A stretch of 64,000 bases of DNA from Tetradesmus obliquus (lineage: Eukaryota > Chlorophyta > Chlorophyceae > Sphaeropleales > Scenedesmaceae): contig CP126193.1 of assembly GCA_030272155.1 (NCBI GenBank), positions 2,976,001 through 3,040,000 of the forward strand. The letters run 5' to 3'. Below the pieces are notes generated by a model, which was not told where the DNA came from, made no database searches, and saw only the letters and a program-made list of their open reading frames with translations. Of the stretch, positions 4,257-63,765 are shown piece after piece. A program made the translations under genes and the position numbers. Every line of letters begins with the position of its first letter. The first letter of the stretch is position 1.

Positions 4257-5318
4257 CTAGCTGCTGGGGCAGGGCTTGCCCAGGTTTGTGTTGCTGGGGT
4301 TGTAGTTCTTTGCGTAGCGCACATTAGCAGGCACCATGCCGCACAGCTTTGGGTTGTCCTGCACCAGCACTGTTGTGAGGTGCCCCGCTAGCAGCATGGA
4401 CAGGTTGCCGCTGAAGTCATTGCCCGCGATGTGGAACTGCGTGAGGTTCTGCGCAGAGCGGCTGCAACAACCACAGCAGCAGCAGCAGCAGCAGGCATAC
4501 GGTGGCAGCAGCAGGGACAGCTGCGTCGGCGGTGTCCATGATGCAGTCGAGACAACCAGGCCAAGCCAAGCATGTTGCTGCAAGGCAGCAGCAGCTGGAG
4601 TGCAGCACGCAGCAGGAAGCACAGCGTGGCAGTGCACGGAATGCTGCTGGTTGATCCTCAAATAAGCTACATAGCATGGCCTTACCGGGCAGTAAACGCT
4701 GTTACAAACGAGAAAGCCGAACAATCAGCAACCGTGATGTTGGCAGGTTCGAGCCCTGAGAACTCGCACAAACCTCAGCAAGCATGCAGCCGTAAGTCCA
4801 GGCCCACTCAAGCAAAAGAGGCGGGTATGGTGCCGCTCACGTGGTCATGACAGCCAGCCAGCCAGCTTGACCTCATAGCACGTACAGTACAGCACACAGC
4901 AAACATGCAACACGCGGCAGCACTACTCACGCTAAGGAGGCGGGTGCCGCTCATGTGGTCGTGACAGCCACATAACCAGCTGGCTGCAGCCAGCTTGAGC
5001 CCAGGACACATACAAAGCAACACACACTGAACATGTGACGCATGGCAGCCCTCACTCACGCGAAGGAGGCTGGTATGGTGCCGCTCATGTGGTTGTGGTC
5101 CACCTGGAAGCGCCGCACGCCCCTGGCCATGGTGCCGTAGGCCTCAGGGATGGTGCCCACAAGGTTGTTGTGCTCAAACTTGGCCTCTGCATGCACAGCA
5201 AAACAGCAGCAGCATGTGGTGGTGAGTCGCAGCAGGTAGTTGCAGGATGGTGCCCACCAGGTTGTTGTGCTCAAACTAGGCCTCTGCATAATGTGTATGA
5301 TGAATGGCAAAGCAGCAG

Positions 5319-5354
<36 letters not shown>

Positions 5355-5436
5355 GTGGTGGTGAGTTGCAGCAGGCGGTTTGCAGGGTGGTGCCCACCAG
5401 GTTGTTGTGCTCAAACTTGGCCTCTGGGGGTGTGAT

Positions 5437-5492
<56 letters not shown>

Positions 5493-6804
5493 TGGCAGTG
5501 AGTCGCAGCAGCTGGTTTGTGGGATGCTGCCCGCCAGTGCGTTGCGCTCGACTTGGCCTCCTGTCAAACAGGTTTGCAGGAACGTTGCAATTGAATCACG
5601 TAATAATGTGGGGTAAACCACTGCAGGCCCCACACCAGCTGCATGCCATGATATTACATGACAGCCTGCTGCAGCTGACACCACCAGCCACTGTAGCACG
5701 CGCTGCAGCTGAGGTTCAAAGAAGATGGGCCACTGGCCTGCTGCAGCTGACACCACTGGTCACAGCAACTCACAGCACAATAGACTGTCCATCTTTACAA
5801 TGGCAGTAACAGCCTGACAGAGCTGGCTTGCTGGCTTGCTGGCTTGTTGGCCGGCTGGCGTGTCCCCACCTGTCAGGCGGGGCATCCTGGCAAGGTATTC
5901 CGGCAGTGTGCCGGTCAGCTGCAGCAAAGCATGACGCACAGGTGGCAGCACACGGCAGCAGGGTAGCATGTTATGCGGGGCAACTTTGCTGGGTACTACG
6001 GCAGTGTGCCGGTGAGCTGCAGCAAAGCAACACAACAGCTTGAAAGTGTGCAGCTTTGCATTTTTCATGCTAGACTGTCCATAGTGACACGCAACACGCT
6101 GGCGGCGCACAAAGAGAACCGCATCACTAAGCAGGTGGGCAGAGCTGCAGGCGCTGAAAAGGCGGTGGCCAGCAGCCTGAAATATGTATCAGGTTTCAAC
6201 AGCACCCAGATCGTCGTGCACCCGTGGCAGCTGTCACACAACTGGAGGCCAGTTATGTACTGCATACAGAACATCACCACACCACTGTGCTGCAGTGCTG
6301 TGCTGCCCCCAGCTGTCCCGCACGCACCCTGTTGTTGCTCAGGTCCAGCTCCTCAATCAGTGGGAAGCAGTTGTCAATCCAGTTGGGGATGGGGCCTGCA
6401 GCAGCAGCAGCAGCAGCAGCTGATGCTTCTGTTCTAGTGCGCCCACCTGCCTTTTCAAACCACCGACTTGCATGTTGGCAGGCCACAAGGGTCTTGCAAC
6501 ACCAAAGTCTCATACACCCACACGATGAGCACTGCCACCGCTCCAACAGTAGGTTGCTAAGCTGTGCGCACACTGTGCAAACAAGCTGGTCACAAGGCTG
6601 AGCATGTCAAGCCGCATCATCACTGCAGTGGCTGCAGCTGTGGCCAGCAGTTGAATTCAAAAAATGTTTCAAGCTGATGCATGCTCAAGGCGGTGTACGG
6701 GCCGGTCCACCGCTGCCCAAAAGGCATGATCTACTTCTGCTGCTGCTGCTGCCTGTGCCGTAAACGGCACGCACGTGTCAGGTTCTGCCCAAATCTCCCG
6801 GCAC

Positions 6805-6835
<31 letters not shown>

Positions 6836-7787
6836 CAGCGGTGGTGTCACCTGTGAGGTAGCCCAGGCCCTCGCGCCCACCAAAGTCAAACTCGCGCAGG
6901 TGGTTCAGCAGGCAGAACTCCTTGGGCACGGGGCCATTCACCTGCATGCATTATGTTGAAGCAGCTGTGTTACTGTATTATTGTAGGACAAGTGCAGACA
7001 CGCGCATCGGTGTGTTTTTTGCCAGAAGCACAGATGCTGCAGTGCAACTGAAGGAAGGAGTTGCAGCTGAACGGATGTTGAGCACATTGTTAACGCAGTG
7101 CAACGCAGTGTTATGCACACCTTCTCGCTTGTGATGTGTGAGCTTGTGACCATGCCGTCGATCACTCCATTGCCAGACTCGCCCCACCCTGCAGCAGCAG
7201 CACACCCAAAAAGATGCGCTCAAAGGCCAGTATCTGTGCTGCGGTGCAATAAGCTACCAGCGTACTATCACAGCAGAGCATGTTGATCACCAACGTTCAT
7301 CGGTTGTGGTGATATGCTGCATTCATGTTGCATACTCGTAGCGCGCTATGAGCACAACGTGTCCCCAGCACACTAAACAGCTAACCACCAAGCTTGCACA
7401 TGATCTCCTCCATTTCACCCCACCTCTCCCCTTCCCTGCCAGCGCCTGTATCCCCTGCAGCACCTTCTCTCACCTGTGCTCTGCCCCCTGCAGTGCATGT
7501 GGTACCAGTTGCCCTCAGTCTCGCGGCCACAGGGGTCGCAGGTGCTGTCGCTGTTGCCTGGTGGCGTGGGGCAGGTCCACTTGCTGGTGGCGGCACGCCA
7601 GTAGGGGCTGCGCGTGTTCATGGCATCCCTCACAGCGATGAACCTGGCCACTGCAGGACGAGGATGGCAGCAGCAGCAGCAGCCAGCAGCAGGTGAGCAG
7701 GTGCAGCAAGGTGTGAGCTCGAGCTGCGCGTGTTCATGGCATCCCTCACAGCGATGAACCTGGCCACTGCAGGGTGAAGCAGGAGAT

Positions 7788-7839
<52 letters not shown>

Positions 7840-9424: not shown

Positions 9425-12400
9425 GGCCCCGCAGTCAGTCTTGCCAATGCCATTTGTTTCAGACAGCATGTGCGGTTTGAAACGGCAGGTTGGCACAGTA
9501 GCTTGCATGTGGCAGACAGACAGTTCTAGTTACTCAGTTGCAAGCATGCAGTGCTTTATAAATCTACATGCAGCAGTTTGCATGGCCGCACCATCAGCTG
9601 CATCTCAGATCTCCCACCTGAGGCAAGAAGAACAGTGCATTGGGCGGCGGGCCCCGCACCGTGCCGCTGCCAACAGTCCACAGCCCTGCAATGACGCGCA
9701 GCAGGCTGGACTTGCCACAGCCCGAGGGGCCCAGCACCAGCAGCGACTCGCCTGCAGCCATACAGGCAGCACATCAACTATCAGGAGAGTGACTCAAAGT
9801 TTTCCGGTGCATTTGAGGCACAATTGCACCGCTGAACACCACTCAATTGGATGCACTTGATTGCCTTCTCAACCTATCAGGCCATCTCAAGCCGCAGTGT
9901 GGCTGAACCCTGCCCACGCAAGCACCATTGCCATGCTCCTACCACCCTCACCTGGTGCTATGCTGAAGCTCAGCTCAGCGCACACGCAGGTGGGCATGTG
10001 GTGCCGGCCAGGCACCCACGCGCTCAGCTCCTCAGCACAAAACCCTGCATATGCCCCATCCATGAGCCGCAACACACGCGAGGGCCGGCCACCGCCACCG
10101 CCACTGCCAGCGCTGCCAACCTCCCATCGCTCCGCTGCCGCTGCTGACACCGCCGCCCCTGATACCCCTGCTGCTTCTGTGCTGCTGCTACCACGCCTGT
10201 TGCTGGCTTTGTCCGAATGCAGCAGCAGCCCTGTAGCCTCCCCTACCTCCTCATCATCTTCAGCTGCTGCTGCTGCTGCTTCCGCTGCCTTGCCTGCTGC
10301 TGTACCTGCCTCACTCTTCCCCGGGCCCTTCTTCCGCTTGCTGCCCAGCCCACCTGCCCTCAGCCCTGCCCCTAACCCCCCCAGCAGCCCCACTGCCCCA
10401 GCCACAGGTTGCTCAAAGCCCTGCACGCTGCCGCTGCCGCCTGCATCCACGTCTGCTGCTTCTAGAGCTGTCAGCAGGCCGTCCAGGCGAGCTGTCTCTG
10501 CTGCCAGGCTGGAGAACTCGTCAAGCTTTGCGAGGATGAGCCCCAGGGCTCCCTCCAGCACTTGGAAGGCATAGCTGGCCTGCAGCGTTGCAAGTAGGGC
10601 AGCAGAAAGGGGACCGTGCAGCAGTGTGTTTGCGATGCAGCATGTCATGTGGTGGTGGTGTGCGGTGTGGTGAGCAAGCCGGCAGGAAAGGGCGCAGTGC
10701 AGAGGTGGGTGGGCTGTGCAGCATGTGACAGAGCGCAATGATCCCGAGAACCCCAAACATCCTCCTGCGTCAGCATGCTTCAGCATGCTGACCATGCGCA
10801 CCACAGCTACTGCAGCAGCGGCAGCACTAGCAGCAGCAGCAGCAGGGTTCTCGGCACCATGCCCATTGCGCAGCTCACAAGGCAGCCTGCCGCACCTGTG
10901 TTAGCGTGCCGAACGGAATCTTGCCTTGAAAGTACTCCGGGGCCAGCACCAGTGAGGGCAGCAGTATAGTGGCATAGGAGTACGCCGTCACCTGCACAGC
11001 AACAAATAATGTCAGTATAAACAATTGGATGGCAGGTGTGGGTGCAGTTACAGCAAAAGCAGCAGCAGTCGCAAGTTTGTACGTTGACCAGCGTGCAACA
11101 ATCCCTGTGATGCAAAGCCGATGCAACTCTAAAATGTATGCAGTGTGCTGGAATTGGCGGCCTGGTGCAGCTGTAGTAAACATGCACATTCTGTTACGTA
11201 AGTATGTAAAGTACATAAGTACGTAAGTACGTATACCCAACAGTCAGAATACAAGCAAAGCAGCGTGTGGATGTGCATGCACACAAGCACAGCAGCACCC
11301 CACGCACCCACAGCTCGTAGCAGCCCAGCCAGCTGATGCGGCGCAGCAGCACCAGCAGCATGGCAGCCAGCCGCTGCCGCAGGTCTGCCGCCTCGCGCGC
11401 ATCACCGCCATAAAAGGCAATCGCCTCCGCGTTCTCCCTGGCAAGGGGTTTGACAAGCAGGGTGGAGGCAGTTTGGGACGGCTACGGCACAGGCAGCAGG
11501 GGCCAGCAGGTTTCACCACATCTCAACATGCAGCCCTACCGGCGCTAACACCCAACCAATCTTACCACCAGCAGTCTGAGGGTTTATCATCTGCAGCTGC
11601 ATGCAGCAGCTAGGACAACATCGCTTGAAACTCAAGACTGCCTGAAGCGCAGCCGCCCCACCTGAGCCGCACCAGGCCGAAGCGCAGGTCCGCCTCCAGC
11701 TTCAGGATGCACAGCACACCCAGCCATTCTTACCGACAGCAGCCAAGGGTCTTATCAGCTGCAGCCACACGCAGCCGCCCCACCTGATCCGCACCAGGCC
11801 GAAGCGCAGGTCTGCCTCCAGCTTTAGGATGCAAAGCACACCCAGCCGTTCTTACCGACAGCAGCCAAGGGTCTATCGGCTGCAGCCACACGCAGCAGCC
11901 CCACCTGAGCCGCACCAGGCCAAAGCGCAGGTCTGCCTCCAGCTTCAGGATGCGCTGCTGCAGGCTGGTCAGCGCGCGGCCGAAGACAGCGGCAGTGCCA
12001 AACGTGCCCAGGAAGGCATAGCCCAGCAGGAACAGCACCAGGCGGGGCGATATGGACCACAGCACGCCTGCAGGCGGGCGGCGAACACACATTAGTGCAC
12101 AAAAGTGCGAAAGGCAGGTGCTAGACTCAAAACTTGACTCTGAAACGCTTCACACAAGGAACAGCCAGCTGCAACAACACCCACGTCTGCTTCCTGCAGC
12201 TGCTCACCTGCAAACGCTGCGCGAAAAGGTTCACTGCCTCATGCCTGCAGGTCCTCACACATGCGATATGCCAAGCTGCAACAGCATCGCATGCGCCTCC
12301 TGCAGCTGCTCACCTGCAAACGCTGCGCAGTTGAGCGCCTTTTTGCCCAGCAAGGCTACCAGCGTGACACTGGTTGACACGTAGTTGGCCACATCGTTCG

Positions 12401-14556: not shown

Positions 14557-17133
14557 ATGATTTCGCAATTCTTCATCCTCAGCCCAAGAGGAGATGTGAT
14601 AATCAGAAGGGACTACCTAGGAAACGTGCCGAAGGTGAGCAGCAGCAGGTGCAGTGCTCAAGGTTGCATCCTGCAAATGGCCACACAGACTGTGCATGCT
14701 GCTTTTGGGACTCCTTGAATCTGCTGCGTGGATGCATGAGTGCCCCTTGTTGCAGCTGTGGTATTGCAGTACTTGCCACCCTGCGCTGCACCACAATGTT
14801 TTATTGCGCAAGGGAAAGGGCCTGCACATGTTTGCAATTGATGCAGCCACCCAAACCGCCAGTCACCGTGTGCTGCCGTGCTGTGCAGACCAGCACAGAA
14901 ACGTTCTTCCGCACGTCAAAGTTCTACAAAGCAGGGGATGAGGCACCACCCATCTTCCTAGTTGATGGCGTGTCATATCTCAGCGTCAAGGTGATTCAGC
15001 AACAGGAGCAGCAGCACAACAGCAAATATGGTGCCCTGTGGCGTGCATGATTATGCATGCACCAGTTCACACAACAGCCAGCAACCAGCAGCAGCTAGCT
15101 CCTGTGCACGGAGTGATGATTGCGTGTGCTACCGAGCGCTGTCAGTGCTGCTTCAGTAGCTGTTGTGCGCGCTGATTGACCCTACAGCATGGCAGCAGCT
15201 CAGCGCTTGGCCTTGAACGCTCTCATGCTGCAGGATGGCGGCGTGCACCTTGTCGCCACCACACGCAACAATGTGTCGCCCTCATTTGTGCTGGAGTTCT
15301 TGAAGCGCATCAGCATCATCATCAAGGTGTGGCAAGCTACAGCATGTTCAGCAGTAGCTGGAGAGAGGCAAGCAGCAGCAGCAGTGGGGGCTGGCGCTGC
15401 AGCAGCTGGTGGACAGCAGCACGTGCGCAGCAACAGCGCCGGGCAGTGGTGGCAGCTTGTGCAGCATGTGTTGCTGGAGGTCCAGCAGCAGCGGCCGAGG
15501 GCCGTGCGCGCGTTGCAGTTGGCAGACACAGTCCTTGCTTGCTGAATCATTTCACTGGCGTGCAGCAGCGGCTGCTGAGCAACAGCCACGTTGCCTGCAG
15601 CAGCACACCCATCAGCAGCATCATGCGCAAGCAGCCATCCCTCTTGAAATCAACCCACACGCCTGCCACTCTGCGCATCATCAATGCCTGCAGGACTACT
15701 GCGGCAGCATCAGCGAGGAGGCCATCCGCAAGAACTTCCCGCTCATCTACGAACTTCTCGATGAGCTGCTGGACTACGGGCTGCCGCAGAACACCAGCAC
15801 GGAGGCGCTCAAGACCTTTGTGCTCAACGAGCCCACAGTGGTGGCGCCGCCGGTGGGTGGGCGGGGCACAGCAAGCTGAGGCGCGTGGCGTATGCGAGAG
15901 AGGAGGGGGGGGGGGGGCGGGGGTTGAGGTTGGCATGCTGGCAGCAAACGAACTGCTTCTGTTGCAGCTGACTTTGTACACATTGTGCATCGAGCTGGAC
16001 CTGCGGTAGAAGTGTGGACTTTTTGGCTAAAAGTCCCCACGGGGGCGACGTTCAAATCCTAGGGTCCCGAAGTTGACCAGGGTACGCCACCAGTGAGTAG
16101 GGCGAGGGGGCCTTGCTCAAGCCGCTGTTTGGACTGTCCGAGGCTTCTGCGCACAATGCGACACATGCGCATATCAACACCATGTGCTGCAGTGCTACCG
16201 AAAATGTGTCATGGCGTGCATGTGGCTGCGTATCAGCGGCCTTTGTCAACCAGCTGTTTGGGCTGTCAAGGGCCGCTGCTGCAAACTTGCTGCTTCCTGC
16301 GCATGCCTCAAACATATATAGCAGTGCCGCTACTCAATGCGGTCCATGTTGCTCCCGCAGGCCTCGCTCAAGCCGCTGTTTGGGCTGTCTAAGGGCCCCA
16401 CGGGTGTGTTTAAGAGCGTGCTGGACACCAACCGCACCGACGGCAAGCGCCGCGACGAGATCTACGTGGATGTAGTGGAGCGGCTGGCGGTTACGTTCAA
16501 CGCGGCAGGCCACGCCATCAGCAGCCAGATAGACGGCTCGATACAGGTGCGGCCGGGCATGTGTCTTCACCTCCGTGTACGCTGTTTCTGCATGCTTGCT
16601 ATGTTGCTGGGGAACGCTTTAACGCGCACGCCTGTGGAAGCCAAGACGGCGGCATGGTGCAAGCACATGGTCTGCAGCTCTGGTGCGCCCACATGCCCTC
16701 ATAACCTGCTCAATTTTCTATCAAAGCATAACATAACACAAATAACACAACGTAACACAACTGCAGGTCAAGAGCTACCTGGCGGGCAACCCGCCGCTCA
16801 AGATCAAGCTCAACGACGACCTGCTCATCACGCGGCGCGACGGCAGCGGCTACGCCGGCGGCGGCGGCTACGGCGGAGGCAGCGGCTTCAGCGCGGGCGA
16901 CTACGCTGCAGACAGCAGCCTGGTCATCCTGGACGATGTCAACTTCCACGAGGTGTGTTTGGTGCTTCCTGGACAGCATGCGTGCTTTCTGATTTAGATA
17001 TCCTGCTTGCCAGGATATGTTGCTGCTGTTTGTTCCGCTGCTGATTGTGCACTGCTGATGTTTTGTTGTGTTCAAGTATGCACGGTTGCCTCATCATTTG
17101 CAGTTTCCACCCACCCTGGCTCACTCGCTGCCT

Positions 17134-17164: not shown

Positions 17165-18332
17165 GGTCGCTGACCTGTCTGCGTTTGACACGGAGCGCTG
17201 CATCAGCCTGGTGCCGCCGGACGGCGAGTTTGCGCTGGCCAACTACCGCACCAGCCACGCGCTGCGGCTGCCCTTCCGGCTCAGCATCGCCACGGAGGCA
17301 GACCCAGCCAGCGACCACAAGGTGCGCAGCGCTGAAGCAGCTCATCACAGTGTGACATGCCCCTTTTCCCAACTTAATGTTGCTTCAGCATCGCGATGGC
17401 GGCAGACCCAGCCAGCGAACGCAAAGCGCGCGGAGCTGTGCAGTGTGGTATGGCTCGCAAGTGGACAAGCCTTCATCTGGCGACTGTCTGCCTGGTGAAT
17501 GCTTGTCCCATCCGCTGCTTATCATGGTGAGAATTTTCCTCTTCCCTTCAAAATTGGCTGGACTGCTGCTGCTGCAACTGCTGCTGCTGCTGTTGTTGCA
17601 CATCATGATTCCGTGCTGTCGCACAGGCACTGGTGCGGCTGCGGCTGTGGTGTGATGTGCCTGCTGACAAGGCCGCCTCAGGCCTAGAAGTGGAGCTGCC
17701 GCTGCCTGGCCACGTAGCACGCGTGCACTGTGAGGTGGATGCACCAGGCTCGGCAGCGCTGGCGGGCTGGGAGTTCAGTGATAAGACGCACCTGCTGCGC
17801 TGGCGGTTCAAGAAGGTGTCAGGTGCGGCTGCGCTTTAGGGTTGAGTGCTGCTGCGCTGGGCGTAAATTTGTTGCTGGCACAGGTGTATTGCAAATGCGG
17901 CGTAGAGGGCTTGCTGCTGCGTGTACCTGTAGCACCAATGCCGTATGCAACGGCAAGATCAGGTTGCAAGCAGTATATACTGTTCACAGGCGCGCAGCAG
18001 CCTAGCGTGTGCACAATGATGCCATTCGAAGCCGTATGCATGTTTACTGTTTGAGTGTGTAATGTAGATACGGTGTTGACCGGTTGTGTTTACTGCGCTG
18101 TCCAGGCGGCATGGACCTGTCCATGCGGGCGCGCCTCACCCTCACCAAGCCCTTTGGCGCGTCACTTCGCACTGAAGTCGGCCCCGTGAACCTGAAGTTC
18201 ACGATTCCCATGTTCAGCGCCAGCCGCATCAGCCTCAAGTACCTGCAGATAATGCGCAAGGAACGCAACTACAACCCGCAGCGCTGGGTGCGCTACGTCA
18301 CCAGCAGCAACAGCTACACGTTCAGGACTTGA
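14557..18332 (+). CDS. AP4M1: AP-4 complex subunit mu
   Basis: This is the medium subunit of the AP-4 adaptor, which sorts cargo at the trans-Golgi network. Exons are 14557-14634, 14889-14990, 15234-15326, 15694-15852, 16361-16546, 16767-16952, 17166-17321, 17627-17822 and 18106-18332. All phases close, giving 460 residues, close to the plant protein (about 450). The N-terminal longin-like part starts [13 protein letters not shown] and continues with [38 protein letters not shown] and [20 protein letters not shown]. The mu-homology domain begins near [20 protein letters not shown] and ends with [20 protein letters not shown] Gly-rich loop ([10 protein letters not shown]) is inserted near residue 200. 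The donor at 17822 rather than 17815 is needed to keep the [15 protein letters not shown] frame. Introns 4 and 7 carry exon-edge copies. Confidence 0.95.
16012..16040 (+). other. Hairpin in AP-4 mu intron 4
   Basis: GGACTTTT at 16016-16023 pairs perfectly with AAAAGTCC at 16029-16036 across a five-base loop. GTG and CAC extend the stem beyond one mismatch. Function is unknown. Confidence 0.5.
16110..16395 (+). repeat. Three tandem copies of AP-4 mu exon 5 acceptor edge
   Basis: The exon 5 start (GCCTCGCTCAAGCCGCTGTT, real start 16361) has decayed relatives starting at 16110 and 16239 in the intron upstream. Spacings are 129 and 122 bases. The relatives have lost a clean AG acceptor. Confidence 0.88.
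17282..17430 (+). repeat. Duplicated donor edge of AP-4 mu exon 7
   Basis: The exon end coding [16 protein letters not shown] recurs about 104 bases downstream (from 17386), where AGACCCAGCCAGCGA is conserved but the GT donor has become GC. Confidence 0.82.
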
Positions 18333-19532: not shown

Positions 19533-21370
19533 TCATACTGAAAAGCGTCGCACATAATTGAATAGTGGGTTGTACAGGCACCCAAACAGCGGCGCTGGTT
19601 CAGGGGTCTGGTCCTTGCGCGTCCTCAATCCTTCAAGGTCCAGCGGCCGGCGCTGCTTGCGCTGGCGCATGCGCGCATCAGCAGCAGCCTGCATGTGCGG
19701 AACGTGTGTAGATGAGCATTAGAGTGAGGTGGCAATGGAACCAGCGCAGTTGGTGTGTTGCAGCAATGTGCAGTACATGCTTCCTGCAGGCCTTGTCATA
19801 CAGCTTGGGCGTGTCAAAAAAGGAGGTCACCATGGCCAGGTCTTGGGCAGCATGGCACCAATGCTTGATGAGATCAGCATGCTGCATGCTACACGAACTA
19901 ATCAGCGCAGTTGTAGTAACCAGCTGAGGCATGCTAGCGCTGTGCCTGCAGGATCAGCTACCTTGAATGGAGGCTCGAGCTTCAGGAACAGCCTGAACTC
20001 CTGCAGCGAGTGACCTGGCAGCGAGTCCCTGAACCTGATGCGCTTCTTGGCTGGGCTGCAGGCACCACCCTGAGCACCGCTGCACTGCACGCTGCTGGAG
20101 CTCTCTCCAGGTGCACCAGTGCTGGGTCCACCCGCAGCTGGTTGAATGGCGCTGACCACACTCGCCTGCTGCGTTTCTTTGCGTGCTGCTGTGCAGGCAG
20201 GATTCACACCGGCTGGCTGCTGCTCCCAGTCCCGCTCCCAGCGCTTGCCCAGAACCTGAGGATAGGTGTTGCCTGCAGGAGTGCCATGTCCAGTGGATTC
20301 TTGCATCATTGCAGCAGTGGCTGAGGTGTTTGCTGCCGCCAGTGCTGCTGACAGCGCTGCCGCAGCAATTGCACTGGATGTTGCTCCTGGTGTTCCAGCT
20401 GCAGCTGCTGTTGCAAGCATCTCAGCTATGATGCTGTAGTAGTTCTTTGCTGCTGCACACCTGCGACTGCCGCTGTCGCTGCTGCTCCTGCAGCTTGACT
20501 TGCCTCGGTAGAAAGCTGAGGGTGGTGCCCTTGCTGCGGCTGAGACGCTGGCTGGCGGAGAGCAGGCTTCAGGCAACCTGGCTTGTGCTGAGGGCACTTC
20601 ACTGCACCTGCGTTCTTTTTGATGGTGATCTTGACAGGCTGCACAGCTGCTGGCGTGCTGACTGGCACCTGGCGTGCCACTGCTGCAGCTGCAGGGGCAC
20701 CTGGCACACGTGCTGCTGTCTTAGCTGCTGGGTTGGCATACACTAGCCGGGCAGGGTCACCCTGTGCCAGCTGTGCTACTGCGGCAATGTCCATGAAGGG
20801 TCTGCGTGCAGCTGCCTTCCTGATGAGCTGCGGCAGCCGCTTGTGCACCTTGTTGCTGCCGCTCCAGTGGATGACTTCAGCGATGCCGCTGAACTTGTCA
20901 TCTTCTTCATGGTTTCCTGCAAGCTGGCGCTTGTTGAAGATGGGGGAGGCCTCTGGCACATCAGGCTCCTGGTGCACAATGGGGGTTGATGGCTCAGAGC
21001 CTACGAAGAAGTCATCGTAGTCTGTTGCGGAGTAAGTGGCGTTGTGTGCTGCTGGGAGCTCTGAGAAGAGGTCTGGGAACATGTCTGCCTCTGCGCGCTG
21101 CAGCTCTTCAAGCAGGAGGAGCTCCGCGTTCACACTGTGTGTCTGTGGCTGGCTGCAGAGAGATGCCGGTGGTAGTGCCTTGCCAGACATAGAGCGGCCA
21201 CGGCTAGTTGCAAGAAGGTTGGCAGCTGCTGCACTGCTGTCTGCTGTGCACCACCCAGCTGGTGCAGCTGTAGCGGCATCACTGGAGCCACTGAGCAATG
21301 CTTGCTCGACAATGGCAGATGAAGGTAAACGCATAAGCTTCTCGGTGTTCTCAGACGTGCGGCCGTCCAT
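19533..21370 (-). CDS. Unrecognised 538-residue protein
   Basis: I do not recognise the family. Exons on the minus strand are 21370-20461, 20407-19962, 19881-19777 and 19688-19533, all with canonical junctions and closing phases. Intron 1 is only 53 bases. The ATG at 21370 opens a long frame. The N-terminal half is Ser/Ala-rich with acidic stretches (AEADMFPDLFSELPAAHN) and the middle is Ala/Gln-rich. The C-terminal third looks folded and conserved: PAKKRIRFRDSLPGHSLQEF, FRLFLKLEPPFK, DLAMVTSFFDTPKLYDKA, then basic RMRQRKQRRPLDLEGLR and FGCLYNPLFNYVRRF. The basic clusters could be nuclear-localisation signals. No membrane segment or signal peptide is visible. The exon 3 start at 19881 was chosen by phase and is the least certain junction. 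Confidence 0.72.
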
Positions 21371-22165
21371 CTCTCAAACAAGACTGCACCCGCTGCCTGG
21401 ACGCAGCCTGCAGCCACAGATGCAGACGAGCAGCACAAGTTTCGGGCAGAACAGCCGAGCAGCCATCTCTTGCGCTCGCAGCAACAAGCAGAGCTGTCTT
21501 AAAGACATAAGTTATGCAGGTGCATGTTCTTCGGAGTAAGTGCTGGCCGCTGGGCGTGCAGTGTCCCACTTTCCCGCGTCAACGTTCTCTTTGTCAGCAC
21601 ACCTGGAACCCCTGCTTGGAAATATCCTAACACGCCGTGGTTGTTAATAGGGTCACAGCAAGCCAAGGTGAGTACCGCTGCTCTTCGGAGGAGAAGAACT
21701 GAGTATATCTCGGCACCACCACACCACCAGCCACTTCGCTGCAGCTGCTGTTCCCAGTAGTCAATCAAATAAAGTTGCAACTATCAGTATCAACCGGCTC
21801 AACTAAACATCATGTTTGCTGCATTGCAAGCTTTATAGGGCTGCACTACTGCGACTGGCAAAGGGTTTAGCAGTTACCAGAAAAAGCGTCTCATTGCAGC
21901 TGTAGCATGTTTGTAACGTGTTACCCAAGATCGACACCCCTCTTCAGTCTGCAAGCTGAGCAGACCAAAACGGCAACACATATTACAACAGCGTTCCAGC
22001 TCACTGTACTGGTGTGCAGACGCCACCTTGCAAAGGCGCATAGGGCACCAGCGCTACGACCTGCTGTACGATGCCTTGGTTGCCTTCTCTACTCACGTGC
22101 GCCACAGCACCGCTGCACGGCTGTAACCCCCACTGCAAACGGACAGCAAGCATTGAGCAGATAGC
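21371..22165. other. Intergenic region upstream of the unknown gene
   Basis: It is relatively AT-richer sequence between two minus-strand genes. It should contain the promoter of the 538-residue protein gene and the 3' UTR of the SirB1-like gene. No conserved frame is visible. Confidence 0.5.
21983..21987 (-). terminator. TGTAA polyadenylation motif for SirB1-like gene
   Basis: TTACA on the plus strand, about 180 bases after the SirB1-like stop codon. Confidence 0.4.
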
Positions 22166-39100: not shown

Positions 39101-39139
<39 letters not shown>

Positions 39140-40341: not shown

Positions 40342-40346
40342 TGTAA
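40342..40346 (+). terminator. TGTAA polyadenylation motif for RBMX2
   Basis: TGTAA about 125 bases after the RBMX2 stop codon. Confidence 0.4.
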
Positions 40347-40377
40347 GTGATGCCAGGATGATCAGGCACACTACTAG

Positions 40378-40455
40378 TACCATAGTAAGGTTGCACGTAC
40401 CATAGTACCATAGTAAGGTTGCACGTACCATAGTACCATAGTAAGGTTGCACGTG
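40378..40455. repeat. 28-bp tandem repeat, three copies
   Basis: CATAGTAAGGTTGCACGT recurs at 40381, 40409 and 40437, an exact 28-base period. The copies are nearly identical and lie between RBMX2 and the IQ-motif gene. Confidence 0.92.
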
Positions 40456-40871
40456 TCAGGTGTTAGCGAGCTATGAGCGATGCTGTACCCGGTTGGTTGC
40501 TTGAGTAACCTGATCGCCACCCTCCGTCCCAACTTCACCGCAGCTTGCACAGACAGAGCCAAAACACCAGCACGAGAAAAGTGCTCATGCAACCTGAGCG
40601 AATTGGCGCGAAGATGTTCAGCGTCGAACCTTCTTCAGAGCTGCAGCCAATCGGCCCCTGACGCACGCTAAAATAATGAATATGAACGCGTCGACCAGTA
40701 TGACGTTGTAAAGGCGACGGTGCTGCAGTGCATGAGCCCTACGGCACTGCCAAGTGCTAGCAGCAGTACCAGCAGATTCTGGGTTAGCAGTGCCTCTGTC
40801 CACCTGGTCAGGTCCACTAATCTGAAGGTCTGCCAAACAAACGTCAATACTCAGAAGCTTCTGCTCTCATA

Positions 40872-44265: not shown

Positions 44266-47200
44266 AGACTTTTTCCGCGGGCGGCCCGGCAGTGTGCTGG
44301 CGCTGTACAACACGCAGCGCGTGCGGCCTGCCTGCACCAGCGCCTCCATCTCAACGGAGCTCATCATGACCAGCTACGCACGCAGCAGCAAGTTCCCCAA
44401 CAAGGGCATGCAGCAGCGCGTGCGCTCCATCACCACCACCTTCCAGGTGACTGGTTGATCGTGTTGCTTTTGATGATGGCAGCACCGTGCTGTGTGCGAG
44501 AGTAAGGGGGCTGCAGATGAGGAGACGGCCAGCAGCAGCAGCAGCAGCAGTGCTGAGTTTGCAATCACTCGCCCAGCAGCAGCCGGGCCGGCGACTGCCA
44601 GGACATGGTGCATGTGGCACTGGGCAGCAGCAGCAGCAGCAGCAGCAGCGCTGGCTAGGAGGACATATGGCATTCCTGCTGACGCGTGCCCTGTTGTTCT
44701 GGCGCGGCTGCGTGTTCTGCTCTGTTTGCAGGGCAAGGTGTTCTCCAAGCAGCTGCAGCTGGATGACTTTGCGACTGACCTGCCCTTGGCATACCAGGAA
44801 GGCAGGGGACTGCTTGGAGGCTTCACCATCGTGAGCAGCAGCAGCAGCAGCAGCAGCATGACAGCCTTGCACATGCAGCAGCAGCTGCTTGCCGTTCACC
44901 AGGCTGGCAGTGCGCCGGCAGCAGCTGCATGCTGCGTGCTGACCCTGCACTGCGCACACGATGTGCTCATTCCTCAACTGCACTTCTCAAATATCATCTC
45001 ACGTACGCTTCACCATGCTCACCAAGATTGCATGCGGGTGCTGCTGCTCTGTGCGTGCTGCAGTTGGTGCAGAATACCACGCGCATCTGCGTGGCCACTG
45101 TGTCGGAGGACTGCCTGAAGATCAAGTCATCGGATGCGTGCGTGAACAGCCTGATCGATGAGCAGATGGAGAATGCCAGCCATGAGGCGGCTGCAGCACG
45201 CCAGCAGCCCACCGTGCTGGTGGCAGCAATGGTGGGCTGCGTGGTGGGAGGTGCGCCACCTGCAGCAGCGCAGCACGACAGCATGACAGCATGACAGCAC
45301 AGCAGCATCACAGCATGTTAGCTTCCCTTGCTAAAGATCGGCAACACTGCAGTCAAACGCTGCATGTGTCAGCAGCATGCATGTACATGGGGACGATCCT
45401 GTGCTTCATCGCAGCGGCCGGGAATGCACGTGGGGCTCTTGGAGCCCAGCTGTACGCCACATGTGGCCCCACTGCTGTCCTGCAAGCAGCATTTATGTGT
45501 GTCAGCTCTGAGCCTCAGCCTGTGCTATATCCATTGCTCCTGCCCCTGCCCCTGCTTCAGGTGTACTGTTGGCAGCAGCGGCGGTTGTCTGGTTGGTGCG
45601 AAGGCGGCGGCGTGCCACACAGCAGCAGCAGCAGCGGCAGCTCGACAAGTCGAGTGATGGGAGCGACGGGAGCAGCAGCAGGCATGTGGCAGCTGGAAGT
45701 GGCTCTGGCAGCTCCCCGCATGGCCCTGACATTGAGCAGGGGCTCATAAAGATCAGGTGAGCCAATGTGCAGGGACAGCAGCGGCATGCGGCGCAACCAT
45801 CAGCAGAGCAGGCACTCTTTCGTCGCAACCACACAGTCACACAGCCATGCAGCCCTTCTCCCGGCATCATGCACACCTGCTTGTGTACTCCGCATGCTGC
45901 TGCAGTGCCGCGCCATCTGCAGCAGCAGCTGCTGACGTCAAGAGCAGCGTTGACCAGCCGCAGCCTCAGCTGCTGGATACACGGGGCTGGCAGATGACCA
46001 CAGAGAGCACGGCACCCTCCCTCAGCATTGCAAGGGATGATCATATCCAGTGGGGCGTCATGCTGGGCGCAGGTGTGACGCCGGACCTTGTTGTTATTGT
46101 TATAACACGTCATTTACTCCCCAAGTTGTTTACGTGATGTTACGAACGTCGTCGCTCAACCGGCATCAGCCTGACGTTCAGCAGCACGGCGGTGCTTGAC
46201 TGGATATGGTGGAGGGGCTGTACTTGCATGAAATCCCGTTGAGGAGTGAGACTTAGATGTACATGCATTGCACGAGATGACCACATCCAGTGGGGCGTCA
46301 TGCTGGGCGCAGGTGCGCCGCTGGGCCATGTCATGTTGCTGTGCAGGAAGTTTGTTGTTGCTGGTCTGCAACTTGCTACGTGTCGTAAGACTTCTGTCAC
46401 ATAACTGGCATCTGATGTGTCAAGGGATGTGCTTGCATGTACAGCCTGTTGAGGACTACGGCATGCATGCACATGCATCTAGAATTCTGTCCTTTGAAGC
46501 CGGGCGTGTGTGTCGCTGTCACTGCTGCTGGGGTTCTGATTTGATTCATCGCTGCGCAGGGTCTTTTGGCAAGGTCTACAAAGGGTTCTGGGGTGGCAGG
46601 GAAGTGGCTATAAAGGTAGGTAGCCGATGCTGTCATGGCAGCGGGCTGCTATTGCCAGGCTTGTTGGTGATTCCATGATGATGGCAGCGGCGGGGCTAGC
46701 ATGGCTGCAGGGCAGTGCACTGCAGCAGCAGCTGTGCTAGAAATTGCGGTGGGTGCTGTGGTGCAGCAGCGTCTCAGCAGTGGGCAGGTGCATGCGGTGC
46801 AGCACAGCACAGGCGGTGTGCCGCTCCCCAGCCTGCCTGCATACGTGGACTGCTGTGCTCTGCTGGAACTGGATCAGCACACCAGACAGCACTACCGATG
46901 TTGCATAAACTCGTGATCTGGCATGGTATTGGGATTGTGTTGGTGGTGCTGAGCGACTGGTGCTGCTGCCGCAGGTCATCGAGCATGATTCAGAGACGAC
47001 AGCAGCCGTCGAAAACGAGGTGCGCTAGCAATGGCAGCAGTGGATCACATGCACATGCGCTGCTTAGGGCAGCCCACCGCAGCGCAACACCAGCACATGT
47101 ACTCCACGCAAGCGCACACGCCAGCAGCAATGCAGTACCGCTTACTATCACACTGCTGCTGCCGGTTGCTGCTGCAGGTCACCCTGATGTTGTCCTTCAA

Positions 47201-47969: not shown

Positions 47970-50139
47970 GCACCTTGGTCATCTGCCAAAGGGGGCGCCC
48001 GGGAGCTGACCACTGATGAAGACACCCCAGTGTACCGCTGGTACCCCGGCATCATCAATTCGAATGATGCGCGCTTCAGCCCGCAAGTCAGTGGCAGCCT
48101 GAAGGAGCTTGCCCGGGCCAAGACGATGCTAGTGCTGGTGAGCCGCCGGCAATTTGGTGCAATCTTGCAGTTTGGCAATTCTCCGTTTGGGTTTTGCTGG
48201 CAGGATCGCAGTGTGCGTCCCGCTAGCCTTGATGTAGTATGTGCCAATCTGTACCCGACGCTGCTCACCTCTCCCTCTCCCACCTCACCCGCGCTGCAGG
48301 AGGAGTTCTGCGGCCAGGGTACGCTGGCCAACCTCGCTGCCACCCAGCGCTGTCAAACGCCCATCACCTGCTTCCATTGTTTCAGGCGCTGTTACATACG
48401 TTGTGGCGTCTTACGTGACATACATCAACTGTGTGTCCGCAGGAGTTCTGCCACCAGGGCATGCTGGCCAACCTCGCTGCCACCAAGTGGCTGCCTCTCA
48501 TTGTTACAAATGTCGTTACGTACATTGTTACATGACATGTTACATCACCAAATGTGTCTGCAGGAGTTCTGCGACCAGGGCACCCTGGCCAACCTGGCTG
48601 CCACCAAGTGGCTGCCTGAGCTGGAAGGAGACGAGCAGATGCTGCGGCGGCTGCTGCTGCTGCGCGACGCGGCGCGCGGGCTGCAGGCGCTGCATGCGGC
48701 ATGTGTGGTGCACGGAGACCTGGTGAGCATGCTGCTGCTGCTGCTGCTGCTGCTTGGCATGAGGCTGATGTTGCGTGAGCGCTGCCTTGCTTTGTGCTTG
48801 CACGCGGCTGGGAGAGTGAGGGGCAGGCCGCATGTCACACTGGCTCTTGCGAGGTGCAACAAACACAATTGCTGCTGCTGCTGCTGCTGCTGCTGCTGTG
48901 TCAGAATGCGCGCAACGTGCTGGTGAGCAGCAGCCGCTGCGCGCCGTACGGCCTGGTGGCGAAGCTGGCCGACCTGGGGCTGAGCCGAGTCATCAAGCAG
49001 CACTCCACACACAGGACCACCAACACGGTGAGCAGCAGCAGCAGCAGCAGCTGGCTGATGCCAGCCATCAAGACCTTGCTGCTGATAGCCCAACAGTACC
49101 CAACTATGCACTGCGCTGGTGTGCATGTGCCAGGCTGTCCCTGAGGTCGCTGTGATCTGTGCCCTGCTGTGCGCTGCCTCGCTGACAACGCATTGCAGGT
49201 TGGCACGCTGAGCCACATGCCTCCTGAGATGCTGCGCTTTGGGCGCATGAGCCCGGCAGCAGACTCGTACGCCTTTGGCATCATGCTGCTTACCCTGTGG
49301 ACAGGACAGGAGCCCTTCAGGTGTGGCTGTTGCACGTTTGACGGGCCCAATTGCTCCACTGTGTGTTCCTTGACATCACTTTACTGTGCTGCACATAAGT
49401 ATCATGCTGCTGACACTGTGGACGGGGCAGGAGGCCTTTAGGTGGGTGGGCTGCTGCATGTTGGCAGCTGAGTTGCTGCTTTTTTGCATTTAATCATGCA
49501 TTACTCCACTTCTTTGGTATCAAGTTGCTGACGCTGTGGACCGGGCGAGTGTCAGGCTGGGAAGGGGCATGCAGCAGCAGCAGCAGGAGTATTATATACG
49601 CCACCTGCCACACACGCTTGCTGCTATTGAACCTTGGTGTTGATCTGTTTCTTTGCTGGCTACAACAGGAAGCTGCACTACGGGCAGTACTTTGAGGCAG
49701 TGGTGCTGCGCAACGAGCGGCCGCCAATCCCACAGCACATGCCGGAGGACTACTCGCTGCTGATGACAACCTGGTGAGTGTTATGTGACATGTTACATAA
49801 CAACATGCACTTGTTGCACACGGGCTTCTCAACGCACTACATGTGCTGGCATCGCCAGTTGCTGCAAACTTGTTGTATACTGCTCCTGCAGTCACGCAGC
49901 TGCGCAAATTACCAACTGCTGGCTTGGCCGCTGCTGCACAAACAACGACCAACTACTCCGTAAGGCAGCACCTTGACTGTACATGTGTGCGGCCCCTGCT
50001 GTTGTCCTTGTGCAGCTGGTCGGTGGACCCTGCTGACCGGCCCTCTGCTGAGCATATCCTGGAGTGCCTGGAGCTCATGATTCGTGACAGGCAGCTAGCA
50101 GTGCAGAAGGCACAGCAGCAGCAGGCAGCGCAGTTCGCC

Positions 50140-50176: not shown

Positions 50177-50688
50177 CGGTGCAGCAGCAGTTGCTGCACC
50201 GCACATGCTCTAGCCATGCGATGGGCTTGCAGACGCCTGCTGCTTCTGCAGAAGGGCTGGCTGCCTGGCAAGCTCGAGGCGGTCAGGCTGTTACGCTGCT
50301 GCCAGCTGCACCACTCGACAGCAACGAGGCATGGGCCAAGCAGCAGCAGCAGCAGCAGCAGCAGCACACGCGGCTCAGCAGCGACGGCGGGCTATCTGGT
50401 GCATGCCACATCAGCACACTCAGCAGCAGCAGCAGCTCAGGGACTTACGCAAGCTCTGCTGCATTGCCGTGCCAGCAGTGCCCGGCCTCTGCACCTGCAT
50501 GCAGCGCTGACAAGCACAGCTCGCCTGGGGTGTGCACGCACCAGCGGGTGCAGATCATGACAGCGCCACTGGTGTTTGAGGAGCAGCAGCAGCAGCAGCG
50601 GATGCCTCGGCAGCAGCCGGAGCGCAGCCGGCAATCATGCATGCACGAGAGCCATCTGGAGCCGTCTGTGTTCATTGAGAGCCTGTGA
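43170..50688 (+). CDS. Receptor-like protein kinase (TKL type)
   Basis: Fifteen exons close in phase to 1156 residues: 43170-43420, 43810-43958, 44268-44446, 44732-44830, 45064-45250, 45561-45756, 45906-46072, 46560-46615, 46975-47019, 47178-48137, 48564-48722, 48905-49027, 49199-49320, 49669-49773, 50016-50688. The signal peptide is MLRLFFTLVLLIVACLSPKF. The ectodomain has no recognised family but conserved Cys. One membrane helix (TVLVAAMVGCVVGG continuing VLLAAAVVWLV, residues about 274-300) is split by an intron and followed by RRRRR. Kinase parts are the Gly loop GAGSFGKVYKGFW (about 406), VAIK Lys 428, alpha-C ENE, catalytic loop VVHGDLNARNVL (non-RD, about 811-822), DLG at 839-841 instead of DFG, PPEML, and DPADRPSAEHILECL. 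About 290 low-complexity residues (about 470-755) are inserted in the N-lobe between NHPNIVRAFHF and LVLEFCDQGTL. The tail is Gln-rich. Ligand and targets are unknown. Confidence 0.9.
44187..44266. repeat. (CTC)n-(CTG)n tract ending at an exon acceptor
   Basis: A CTC run and then about 20 CTG units lead directly into the CAG acceptor of receptor-kinase exon 3. Confidence 0.95.
46028..46312 (+). repeat. Duplicated donor edge of receptor kinase exon 7
   Basis: The exon end coding ARDDHIQWGVMLGAG and its donor (46072) recurs exactly 240 bases later (46312), with CCAGTGGGGCGTCATGCTGG identical and the GT donor kept. Confidence 0.93.
48299..48620 (+). repeat. Three tandem copies of receptor kinase exon 11 acceptor edge
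   Basis: GAGTTCTGCxxCCAGGGxA and the following LANLAAT coding bases start at 48303, 48443 and 48564, each after a CAG acceptor. Spacings are 140 and 121 bases. Only the last copy continues into the full exon. Confidence 0.94.
49270..49560 (+). repeat. Three tandem copies of receptor kinase exon 13 donor edge
   Basis: The exon end coding IMLLTLWTGQEPF (aligned base 49281) recurs at 49402 and 49520, spacings 121 and 118. The second copy keeps a GT donor. The third is frayed. Confidence 0.93.
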
Positions 50689-51000
50689 ATACACGCTGCC
50701 CGCTTTCTCTGCGCTGGTGGTTTTGCAGGCAGGGTGCTGCCAGGCACCGCTGCTGTTGACGGCAGAAAAATCAGGCTGTTGATGCCTTGCAGGCTGCCGT
50801 ACGTGTTCATTGAGAGCCTGTGACGATTTGCAACATGCTGCGCACTCTGAGCTGGTGGTTTGTCAGGCAGGGTGCTGCCAGGCACCGCTGCTGTTGATGG
50901 CAGCACAGTGCAGGCTGTTGATGCCTTGCAGGCTGCTGTCCGTGTTCAGTGAGAGCCTGTGATGATTTGCAACATGCTGCACACTCTGCGCTGGCCTGGG
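50662..51000 (+). repeat. Three tandem copies of the receptor kinase 3' end
   Basis: The last codons and stop (GTTCATTGAGAGCCTGTGA) occur at 50670, 50805 and 50943, each followed by a related block containing CAGGGTGCTGCCAGGCACCG. Periods are 135 and 138 bases. The first stop ends the protein, so the others are in the 3' UTR. Confidence 0.93.

Positions 51001-51873: not shown

Positions 51874-51943
<70 letters not shown>
51874..51943. repeat. (TG)n microsatellite
   Basis: About 35 uninterrupted TG units, the only long dinucleotide run in the window. Confidence 0.97.
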
Positions 51944-60102: not shown

Positions 60103-60800
60103 TTGTTGCCGTGGCTGAAGCCTTGCATGCTGCGGCAGTGTCAGGCTTGATGACCATGCACGACTGCTGATCTGAACGGTTGAGTTTGTGTGGTTGCTGA
60201 CACAATCAGGATCGCACACGCATGCAGAAATGCCACGTTGCTAGCTGCAACCACTGCTAGGGTTTTTTTGGGGAAACAGCTGGAAGTCAAAGCCACTGCA
60301 CACAACTTGAATCTGTCACAGCCCATTCAATCCATGCTTTAAAGCATACCGTATCAATTTGTTCTGGCATTTATGCGTACGTCACTCGTCTCACTCGCTG
60401 TGTTGCAATGCATTGGCCTCGTGGCTCACTGCACATGTGCCGGGCACTGCATGCAGCTGTAGCTGGCACTCCAGCCGCAGCATGCGCAATTTCGTGTGTT
60501 GATTCAGCAGAACTTGCAACCCAGTGTTTCTTTATCGTGTTTTTGCCGGCCCTGTCTCCTCGACCGCGACAATAACTTGTTAGCCGGCTATAGCAGCATC
60601 GTTATTTTTGGCAAGCTCTGATGTATGACGCCCCCAAACATGCAGTAGCTTACATATTCGTCATATTTGCATTGCCTCAGGCACTTGACTGCGGGAATCG
60701 GCCATATCCTGCGTAGAGCTGCCTTGCATGATTGGGCGGGACCCGACCGACCACAAAATTTGTCCGCCACATTCGGCCAGAGAGCACTGTAAATAACATA
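60103..60800. other. Intergenic region between CFAP119 and the lactone oxidase
   Basis: The CFAP119 3' UTR and the oxidase promoter. It is AT-richer near 60330-60680. A TGTAA at 60789 is too close to the next start to be assigned. No gene is seen. Confidence 0.45.
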
Positions 60801-61055
60801 ATGGCCTACCATACATGTATAGCAGCTACGCTGCTGCTTTTTGTCGGGTGCTGCGCGATGACTGGACATGGCTTTAGCTTTCAGACCAATGACAAAGATG
60901 GCATCGATCCCTCGAACCCTTTCCCTGCCGGCATACCACGTCTAGACAACCCATTTCTGGACAATTTGAAGGATCCTTGGGCTGAGCCAGAACTGCCAAA
61001 GAACGCATACAGAGGACTGTATGTAAGTGCAGCAGCAGTGACGGCATCACCAGCT

Positions 61056-61111
<56 letters not shown>

Positions 61112-63765
61112 TTAAAGCAATCAACGCACTTGTATCCGCCTGCTACACAACAACACATTGCCTACCTGTGACCATTGTGCAGCCTGACAGCAGCGTGCAT
61201 GTCATGAGCAGGGACGTCAGACAAGCAGAGCCCGCGCCCCTCTACCCCAACCTGCATGCCCAACCCAATCCTGTTGCATGCTGCAGGGCCACACCACGTG
61301 CTCCACTGACGAGCTGGTCAGGCCAGAGTCAACTGAGCAGCTGGCAGCAGCAGTCAAAGACCTCCGCGCGCGTGCGCAGCAGCAGGGGCGCCCGCTGAAG
61401 ATGCGCGCCACCCGGCCTCAGTTTGCCACCATGCACAGCATGCCGTGCGCTGAGCAGCCCACGCTGCTGTCACCCTTCGAGGTCCAGGGCAAGAAGCCCA
61501 TTGTCGTTGGGTAAGCAACAGCTGTGAAACACCGCTGTACCACTCAACATGTGTCACTTGAACACAAGTTGCTGAGCCTTGGGTTGACGTCTTTGTAACA
61601 CCGCATGCTGGCTTGAGCTGTTGCTGCCTGTGTGCAGCACGCCTGTGCTGTGTGTCAAATTTGTCTCTGCTACCGCTGCCATTGAAGCTTGCCATGTTGC
61701 GCCGCAACTGTGTGTTGCTGCAGCATCATGATGGACAAGATGACAAAGGTGCTCAGCGTGGACAGTGCCAAGAAGCAGATGCGTGTGCAGGCGCAGATGA
61801 CGCTCAAGGAGCTGTACGCAGCGGCTGATGCAGCAGACATGTCCACGCCGCGCTCAGCACTGCCCTGGTGGCAGGGCCTCACTCTGGCTGGTGTGTTTGC
61901 CACCAGCAGCCACGGCACTGGCAACAACGTGACATCCATGATCGTGAGTGCTGATGCTTGCAGGATAGCAGGACATGGTGCATGAGCTCGCCAGCAACGT
62001 GATAGTTTGCAACAGCAGCAGCAGCAGCAGCAGCAGTCGGCAGTATGCAATTCTAGAGCTCACTGCGCAGCATACAAACATGGGGCCAGGTAAAAGACAC
62101 GCAGGCAGCTGCTGACCCACGTCAGCTGGGACATGCCTCGATCTAGCTGCAGGATTGTCTGCCTAGCTACATGATCAGATGTCAGAACTTGCCGGTTGCT
62201 GTCACGGCTGCCTCACTGCACTCTATTGCTCGATTGATGCACCTTTCATCACCTTACACACTCAGCTCCTCACACTGTCGTGGCCTGCCTGCAGTGCGAC
62301 TGGTTCGTGGACGTCACCTGGGTGGATGCTCGCGGCGAAGTTCACACCAGTGCCAAAGGAAGTGAGGAAGCTCATGCGCTGTGTGGCGGGCTGGGCCTGC
62401 TGGGAACTCTCACGGAGTTCACACTGCAGCTCACTGAGACCAGCAAGACGCACTTCTTCACTGCTTACTTGAAGGATGATGACAACTTGGCTGATGACAT
62501 CGAGAAGCTGCTCAAGGTGAGCTGACACCAGGCATATGAGCGTCTGCGGTATAGGCGTTAGGGTACAATGGTACAGCACATGTGCTGAGGCCAGTCATGC
62601 CAGCTACATGGCTGATGACATCGAGAAGCTGCTCAAGGTGAGCTGATTCCATGAGGCGGTGCGCTGCACAGCACCTGTGAAGCAACATTTTGCCGATTTA
62701 CATGTAAGTGTGCAAGCGAAGCGGGTGTGGAATGAGCTATAGTTGTGGCTGCTGGGGTACAAGGGTACAGCAAGCGTGCTAATGCCATTCATGCCAGCTA
62801 CAAATGGTGCATGAGTAGGGTGCAGGTATCCATAAGCTTGCAAGTCCAGGCTGGGCAGCTCATGCGGGCATCGCTCTTCAGCTGCAGTGCGCAGTACAGC
62901 TGAGCAGCCTGTTGGTGGATAACCTGCGGCTGTTGGTGAGGTGACTGCCGCTGCTGCTGCTGCTGCCGCCTGCCTGCAACAGATCACACCACACATTGTG
63001 GTGATGTGGAGGCCAGATGTCAAGAAATACACAGGTGCGGGCAGCTAACAGCAGCATATTCAGCAATCCTCTTTGTTCTGATGCGACATGCCTGTTATGC
63101 CATGTCATGATGCTCAGCCCCAGCCACCCGCCTCTGCACCAACCTGCCGTCTGCAACCCTGCCAGCACAGCCTGCTCAGCACACACAAACTGACCAACCC
63201 GTCTGCCTGTTATCACGTGTGTCTGCTGTTCCTGCCACTCCTCGCTGCAGCCCATATGCAGGAGCCCGCGCCAGCGCATGCACCTGCCATCCCTGGCGCC
63301 GTCTGCAACGTCATCCCGCAGGCAGCAGCCATCCAAGCCACTATGGGTGGCCCCCTGCTGCGCGCATGGCAGAAGGACCCTTTCAATCAAGGCACTTACT
63401 ACTACCAGACAGGCTTTGATACTGTGGCTTGCACGCTTGCAAGGGCCAGTGCAGTGGGGGCTCCCTGGGTAACTAAGCCCGGCCCTGGATCTGCACTGGG
63501 CATGCCAACTCCTGTGCTTGAGGGAGTGGCGCTGACAAACCATATTACGAGCACAGAGTGTGGCGACCAGTGTGCATTCACGTCGAAGGCACTCATGGCG
63601 ACTGCCCTGGTAAGCGCATGCCTGCAGCAGCGTGTCAGATTGTCTGTCAGTCATTGTTCCTATGCTGAGCACTGTGAAGGAGGCGCGTGCGAATGAAGCT
63701 CGTATGCGCTGACCTGGCCTGCCTTGTTGGTTGCTGGGTGCCCAGCTGGCATCAAGGGTAAACTA

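Follow-up and report, generated by a model that had tools for sequence, protein, structure and literature searches.

The window analyzed here is a 64-kb stretch of the Tetradesmus obliquus genome (C3, 2976001-3040000, of 104.66 Mb in 17 contigs; Table 1 of PMC5966456 lists 107.7 Mb, 57% GC and a mean intron of 462 bp for the species), and our subject is the extra copies of exon edges that lie in its introns. A self-diagonal scan with 36-base windows, at least 30 matches required and low complexity masked, returned 23 diagonal segments at offsets of 40-400 and none at 361 control offsets (5,000-5,360). At offsets of 20-1000 there were 24 matches in 15 clusters, and none at control offsets of 6,000-6,980; these control offsets gave no match in sampled blocks C1, C2 and C4, four in C5 and four in C10 (see below for the blocks). 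A 28-bp minisatellite makes up one of the 15 clusters. Read from alignments and predicted exons, the remaining 14 all touch a coding edge, which is a splice junction in 13 cases and a stop codon in one (50661-50994). The smallest offset in a cluster was 96-135, apart from two clusters with 240 and 251. Relative to the retained edge, the copies sit on its intron side.

A preliminary description of the window had reported at least 15 such places in seven genes. Our count is close to this, with 14 clusters in six of the seven genes; the SirB1-like gene had none at the scan threshold. Its placement of the copies on the intron side was borne out. Its gene names were backed by Pfam for the ABC transporter (membrane region), the AP medium subunit, the protein kinase, the SirB1-type transglutaminase-like domain and the lactone-oxidase-like gene (FAD-binding_4), while the LRR and folate-receptor-like fragments had no Pfam match at E 0.01 and both names are unconfirmed. 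The 14 clusters are as follows.

4799-5097, minus strand: LRR-like gene, donor edge with the exon end near 5060; two intron copies at offsets of ~129 and ~248.
5145-5560, minus strand: LRR-like gene, acceptor edge with the outer copy near 5148-5192; two copies upstream along the transcript, with offsets of 97 and ~237 (exon absent from the gene models, edge assigned by eye).
5871-6029, minus strand: LRR-like gene, acceptor edge copy at offset 98 (edge read by eye).
7607-7833, minus strand: LRR-like gene, acceptor edge copy at offset 116 with 51 identical bases (edge assigned by eye).
11648-11953, minus strand: ABC transporter, donor edge; a 122-bp unit present 2.5 times, ~94% identical (exact donor read by eye).
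12164-12328, minus strand: ABC transporter, donor edge copy at offset 107.
16109-16394, plus strand: AP medium-subunit gene, acceptor edge of the exon from 16361; upstream copies at offsets of 122 and 251.
17281-17438, plus strand: AP medium-subunit gene, donor edge copy at offset 104.
28417-28568, minus strand: folate-receptor-like gene (name unconfirmed), donor edge copy at offset 96-100.
46025-46331, plus strand: receptor kinase gene, donor edge with the exon end at 46072; copy at offset 240.
48294-48617, plus strand: receptor kinase gene, acceptor edge of the exon from 48564; two upstream copies at offsets of 121 and 261.
49280-49462, plus strand: receptor kinase gene, donor edge with the exon end at 49320; copy at offset 121.
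50661-50994, plus strand: receptor kinase gene, C-terminal coding end and stop codon copied; period 135-139, ~2.4 copies.
62479-62660, plus strand: lactone-oxidase-like gene, donor edge copy at offset 121 with 40 of 41 core bases identical (donor read by eye).

The survey was extended to five blocks totaling 264 kb, made up of the window and four 50-kb blocks (C1, C2, C4 and C5), with a sixth block of 40 kb on C10 held out (304 kb in all). Genes were modeled with a self-trained gene finder run without RNA data, which converged on the donor CAG|GTGAGT and the acceptor CTGCAG|. Predicted exons that copied a neighbor were banned ahead of the final counts, with the consequence that a genuine repeated exon would be lost. 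Intron counts were restricted to introns of at least 60 nt, and the final copy counts used a score threshold of 17 on the banned models; a first pass at threshold 18 on unbanned models had found copies in 42 of 325 introns.

Across the five blocks, 45 of 301 predicted introns hold copies of their own exon edges, 86 copies in all, compared with 3 hits in 2,730 null searches. Donor-edge copies occur in 32 of these introns, acceptor-edge copies in 22 and both in 9. The nearest copy lies 100-139 bp from its edge at 36 of 54 edges and closer than 93 bp at only one, in keeping with the narrow unit length noted from the window. Copy-bearing introns numbered 8 of 88 in the window, 11 of 48 in C1, 0 of 60 in C2, 7 of 45 in C4 and 19 of 60 in C5, and copy density thus varies, C2 being without any; the GC content of C2, 61.7%, also sets it apart from the other blocks. 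For C10, offsets, intron share and codon pattern were predicted in writing before the block sequence was known. The first two predictions held, with 13 copies in 9 of 59 introns and nearest offsets of 106-126 in 7 of 9 cases (the others at 176 and 246). The recurrence of exon-edge duplications first noticed in the window is therefore real beyond it, in C1, C4, C5 and C10 though not in C2, and the six blocks together have 54 copy-bearing introns among 360 (~1 in 7) and 99 copies in 304 kb. Extrapolation gives ~34,000 copies genome-wide if the six blocks are representative. Introns with copies have a median length of 449 nt versus 233.5 nt for those without, as would be expected if introns grow by such events, a comparison that is partly circular because longer introns offer more room.

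Enrichment at junctions, which the preliminary description had put forward as one of the checks to be made, was assessed with all pairs at offsets of 90-170 outside C2. A predicted edge was overlapped by 41 of 56 pairs, more than in any of 300 random placements (mean 23.8, maximum 33). The remaining 15 pairs were exonic (7), intronic (4) or intergenic (4), and at least seven of them, read by hand, are edges that the gene finder missed. Among pairs of at least 90% identity, 15 of 21 lay at a predicted edge (random mean 9.3, maximum 16), the other six being exonic (1), intron-interior (2) or intergenic (3). By automatic count this subset alone is within chance; hand reading adds four edges (5148 in the window and 1746, 3229 and 11182 in C5). 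The edges concerned are not all splice junctions as had been described, since a second stop-codon edge was found at C5 5402-5589, where the last coding codons and the stop are copied into the 3' region. Together with the window cluster at 50661-50994, it indicates an effect wider than splice junctions. The copies are not minisatellites in the sense of many head-to-tail units laid down regardless of coding edges; most are few in number, and they exceed random placement at edges.

One explanation for such a distribution is plain neutral tandem duplication at random, in which edges are favored since one of the two copies is constrained and the unit is about half an intron long. Random placement already yields 23.8 of 56 edge calls, exon constraint helps detection, the high-identity subset does not exceed the random maximum, and decay is evident among the 86 inner copies (those within introns, as opposed to the outer copies at the retained edges), 13 of which have a frameshifting gap and 4 a stop. 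The codon pattern in C10 fits as well. However, the edge count of the full set is above every random placement, the offsets are narrow, young unarrayed pairs are homologous over no more than about half of the period, and the main sample has a synonymous bias (both described below). Neutrality alone is not sufficient, as duplications should then be just as dense inside introns and between genes, and we consider this explanation improbable. The earlier proposal that a duplication across a junction is nearly neutral thus retains the support of the edge excess and of the intron-side retention, but falls short on the density argument and on the mostly synonymous differences of young pairs.

Which of the near-identical sites is spliced could be assessed for two genes encoding conserved proteins. 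In block C1, ClpR spliced via its outer copies aligns without a gap over residues 2-185 to the Clp protease subunit 7eko_L, which we take to be the Chlamydomonas subunit, and the gene finder arrived at the same four-exon model once copy-exons were banned. The ClpR intron at 20893-22372 of the block contains six copies, four of the donor edge and two of the acceptor edge. When one inner copy was searched genome-wide, all five matches were at the ClpR locus (its own exon and the sister copies), and the ClpR protein had near-identical matches only at its own locus, with 31-44% identity elsewhere. Glutamate-cysteine ligase in block C5, hand-spliced via the outer copies, has three stretches that match 9ufc_A, and the first of them spans a duplicated donor edge without a gap. 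For both genes the outer-copy versions were the ones searched, and use of the outer site gives the conserved protein. A structure search with a COX15-like protein gave no match. Outer sites winning at donors and acceptors alike would be the expectation under exon definition.

In the Rogers model of exonic tandem duplication at AGGT, the intron equals the duplicated unit, with the donor in copy 1 and the acceptor at the same point of copy 2, from which coding continues. We rejected it for ClpR and glutamate-cysteine ligase, in which coding resumes in a different exon and not inside copy 2. A function of the inner copies themselves, as alternative exons, decoy sites or recursive-splicing stops, would account for the synonymous bias and for the many intact inner splice sites (GT in 36 of 45 copies, AG in 28 of 32). 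Set against this, some copies carry the stops or frameshifts noted above, donor-edge copies begin mid-exon, and the two ortholog-checked proteins require the outer copy only. Offsets modulo 3 of 0, 1 and 2 were found at 13, 21 and 20 edges, so that no frame is favored; in-frame isoform function was rejected on this ground, and a functional role of any of these kinds appears very improbable.

In the eight unarrayed pairs of at least 95% identity, homology spans 0.18-0.54 of the offset, and in the seven arrays of at least 94% identity the fractional copy number was 0.46-0.69 in six and 0.11 in one. In the first pass (49 edges) the exon part had a median of 56 nt and the intron part a median of 10 nt. 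Pooled flank similarity was near chance on both sides (44 pairs, mean z 0.54 and 0.25). When intron flanks were anchored at the junction, the mean z was 2.6 for 77 outer-inner pairs (median 1.43, 40% above 2) and 2.5 for 42 inner-inner pairs (median 1.23). The intron flanks are therefore homologous on average, and the original unit did include intron sequence; the idea of a pure filler, an unrelated insert in an X-S-X anatomy, was withdrawn on this evidence. The intron side of the unit has diverged far faster than the exon side. In this respect the copies are internal gene duplications, that is, homologous segments of the same gene comprising exon and adjoining intron, with 86 of them in 45 of 301 introns. 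They are, however, not simple recent tandem duplicates, given the partial homology of the period and the mostly synonymous differences between young copies.

The reading we prefer, to which we would give about an even chance, is that the copies are repair-born local duplications in which one break end is extended by ~120 nt and then end-joined, and that they are kept since the outer splice sites win. Local duplications of ~95-165 bp would be frequent in this genome. After ~120 nt of extension, templated by the sister or a homolog, a break end may be end-joined to the other end rather than annealed, a failure of synthesis-dependent strand annealing (SDSA) that would leave the stretch present twice. 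Within an exon such a duplication would break the protein and be lost; across a coding edge it would be tolerated, because the outer donor or acceptor is still used or because the duplicate lies after the stop codon, and the extra copy would become part of the intron or 3' untranslated region. The intron half of the unit would then drift fast, while the exon half may stay recognizable because the real exon is constrained and exon stretches could still recombine. Unequal exchange among copies would produce arrays, and introns would lengthen stepwise. The copies themselves, their offsets, the edge bias, the use of outer sites in the two ortholog-checked genes and the faster intron-side divergence support this directly; how the breaks are repaired, what part recombination plays and whether exon definition sets the choice of site are our inference. 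A precedent exists in Caenorhabditis elegans helq-1 mutants, whose tandem duplications of ~100 bp to 10 kb are ascribed to end-joined failed SDSA intermediates in PMC8654963, which also states that plants are without HELQ.

Several results weigh against this reading. Junction-anchored flanks do not match in part of the young pairs, with z below 1 in 10 of the 27 pairs of exon identity 0.94 or more (above 2 in 14). Of the 82 differences in main-sample pairs of at least 90% identity, 61 fall at third codon positions (P ~2e-6 versus 0.49), with 54 synonymous and 22 nonsynonymous codon differences and no stops; neutrality of the copy since its origin is not enough to explain such mostly synonymous young differences. 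The copies are absent from the 60 introns of block C2. The helq-1 duplications, according to the same paper, have a median of ~1 kb and not 120 bp, and the repair route by itself predicts no lower limit near 95 bp. Two genome loci match the Pfam model POLQ_helical, one of them above the cut-off, and so there is no sign of a repair defect.

The codon pattern was compared with a model of a neutral inner copy and a purely synonymous outer exon, which gives a third-position share of 0.46-0.51 depending on mutation bias, a ceiling that presumes equal neutral rates in exon and intron. For the nearest copy per edge, differences at codon positions 1, 2 and 3 numbered 44, 36 and 145 (third share 0.644, gene-bootstrap 95% interval 0.543-0.722). 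Consecutive inner copies differed at 32, 32 and 83 positions, a third share of 0.565 with a bootstrap interval (0.443-0.619) that includes the neutral prediction. Older pairs had 83 of 139 differences at third positions, with 61 synonymous and 54 nonsynonymous codons and two stops. In C10 the younger class (4 edges) had 6 of 11 differences at third positions, with 5 synonymous, 5 nonsynonymous and one stop, and all pairs together had 24 of 47. The third-position part of the written prediction thus held only nominally, and the expected excess of synonymous over nonsynonymous changes failed to appear. The C10 pattern is thus consistent with simple neutrality. The main sample shows a strong synonymous bias, which this small second sample did not replicate.

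The bias would be explained if the outer and inner copies came from two diverged alleles of a hyperdiverse or introgressed population. In such a diverged-homolog repair only the exons align, synthesis that enters a non-matching intron fails to anneal and is end-joined, and the product places the exon edge and intron start of allele B before the exon edge of allele A. With the exon border as the point of annealing failure, the edge preference over random placement, the non-matching flanks and the synonymous differences would be explained jointly. The stronger third-position bias of the young pairs than of the older ones points this way, as do some young pairs whose exon parts are far more alike than their flanks, and crossovers prefer exons in the hypervariable fungus Schizophyllum commune (PMC4209137). 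On the other side stand the weak bias in C10, the differences between inner copies, whose third-position share (83 of 147) is not clearly above the neutral ceiling, and an inner ClpR copy that deviates at seven residues where the exon equals 7eko_L, a pattern fitting decay rather than a functional allele. Because of the C10 result and these seven residues, we rate a diverged template as unlikely, though still a serious candidate. The wider notion that the introns are a fossil store of diverged alleles, their growth driven by allelic divergence and their units recording old coding alleles, is correspondingly doubtful. By reasoning alone, an assembly that had joined two haplotypes at similar exons would also produce the synonymous differences and non-matching introns that we observe. 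Against it stand the assembly in only 17 contigs, the lack of any N in the sampled blocks and the arrays of up to ~5.5 copies at fixed periods, and we hold an artefact of this kind to be highly unlikely.

Transposons and simple repeats are the usual explanation for intron growth. Gao and Lynch (2009), cited in PMC4974935, are reported to have described internal gene duplication and intron creation. As in their internal duplications, segments within a gene are doubled here and may become intron sequence; unlike theirs, the events in the alga crowd coding edges, several per gene and with a narrow ~120 bp period, and their outcome in both genes checked is a longer existing intron, not a new one. 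What seems unusual, to our knowledge, is how densely exon-edge copies occur, together with their narrow spacing and their concentration at edges. Tandem duplication as a source of introns is an established idea, as the preliminary description had stated (reviewed in PMC3443670). In the potato RdRp gene, a single recent duplication across an intron-exon boundary made a new intron (PMC4974935). The alga's duplicated segments likewise cross one such boundary, but the copies number 99 in 304 kb, and neither of the genes checked shows a newly made intron. The helq-1 duplications resemble ours in being local, head to tail and ascribed to extension of a single break end, and differ in arising in a mutant background and in their size; the available sections of PMC8654963 do not mention an exon-edge bias. 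Introners (PMC9860276) also alter introns recurrently across many genes; they are dispersed copies of one element, whereas the one algal copy searched matches its own exon and sister copies only. In open-license literature, covered mostly as titles and abstract openings, we found no description of the exon-edge-copy pattern.

Our results suggest that introns in this alga are lengthened again and again by one particular type of DNA-repair accident. Frequent, size-restricted duplication at coding edges leaves readable traces in about one in seven introns of the sampled blocks, so that a single organism would allow tests of how introns lengthen step by step, of how the outer site is selected when two splice sites are nearly identical, and of the repair route.

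Repeats of other kinds were also seen. Tandem arrays with other periods occupy C4 1-1135 (~191 bp) and C5 47520-48828 (220/25 bp), in non-genic DNA or doubtful gene models. In the window, the 28-bp minisatellite lies at 40375-40454 (2.9 copies, 100% matches), within an intron predicted for the gene at 34636-41868, and seven perfect 9-bp repeats at 39324-39386 encode a lysine/glutamate-rich stretch of a predicted protein. A perfect GT dinucleotide run of 35 units is found at 51874-51943, and CAG/GCT trinucleotide runs are numerous across the window.

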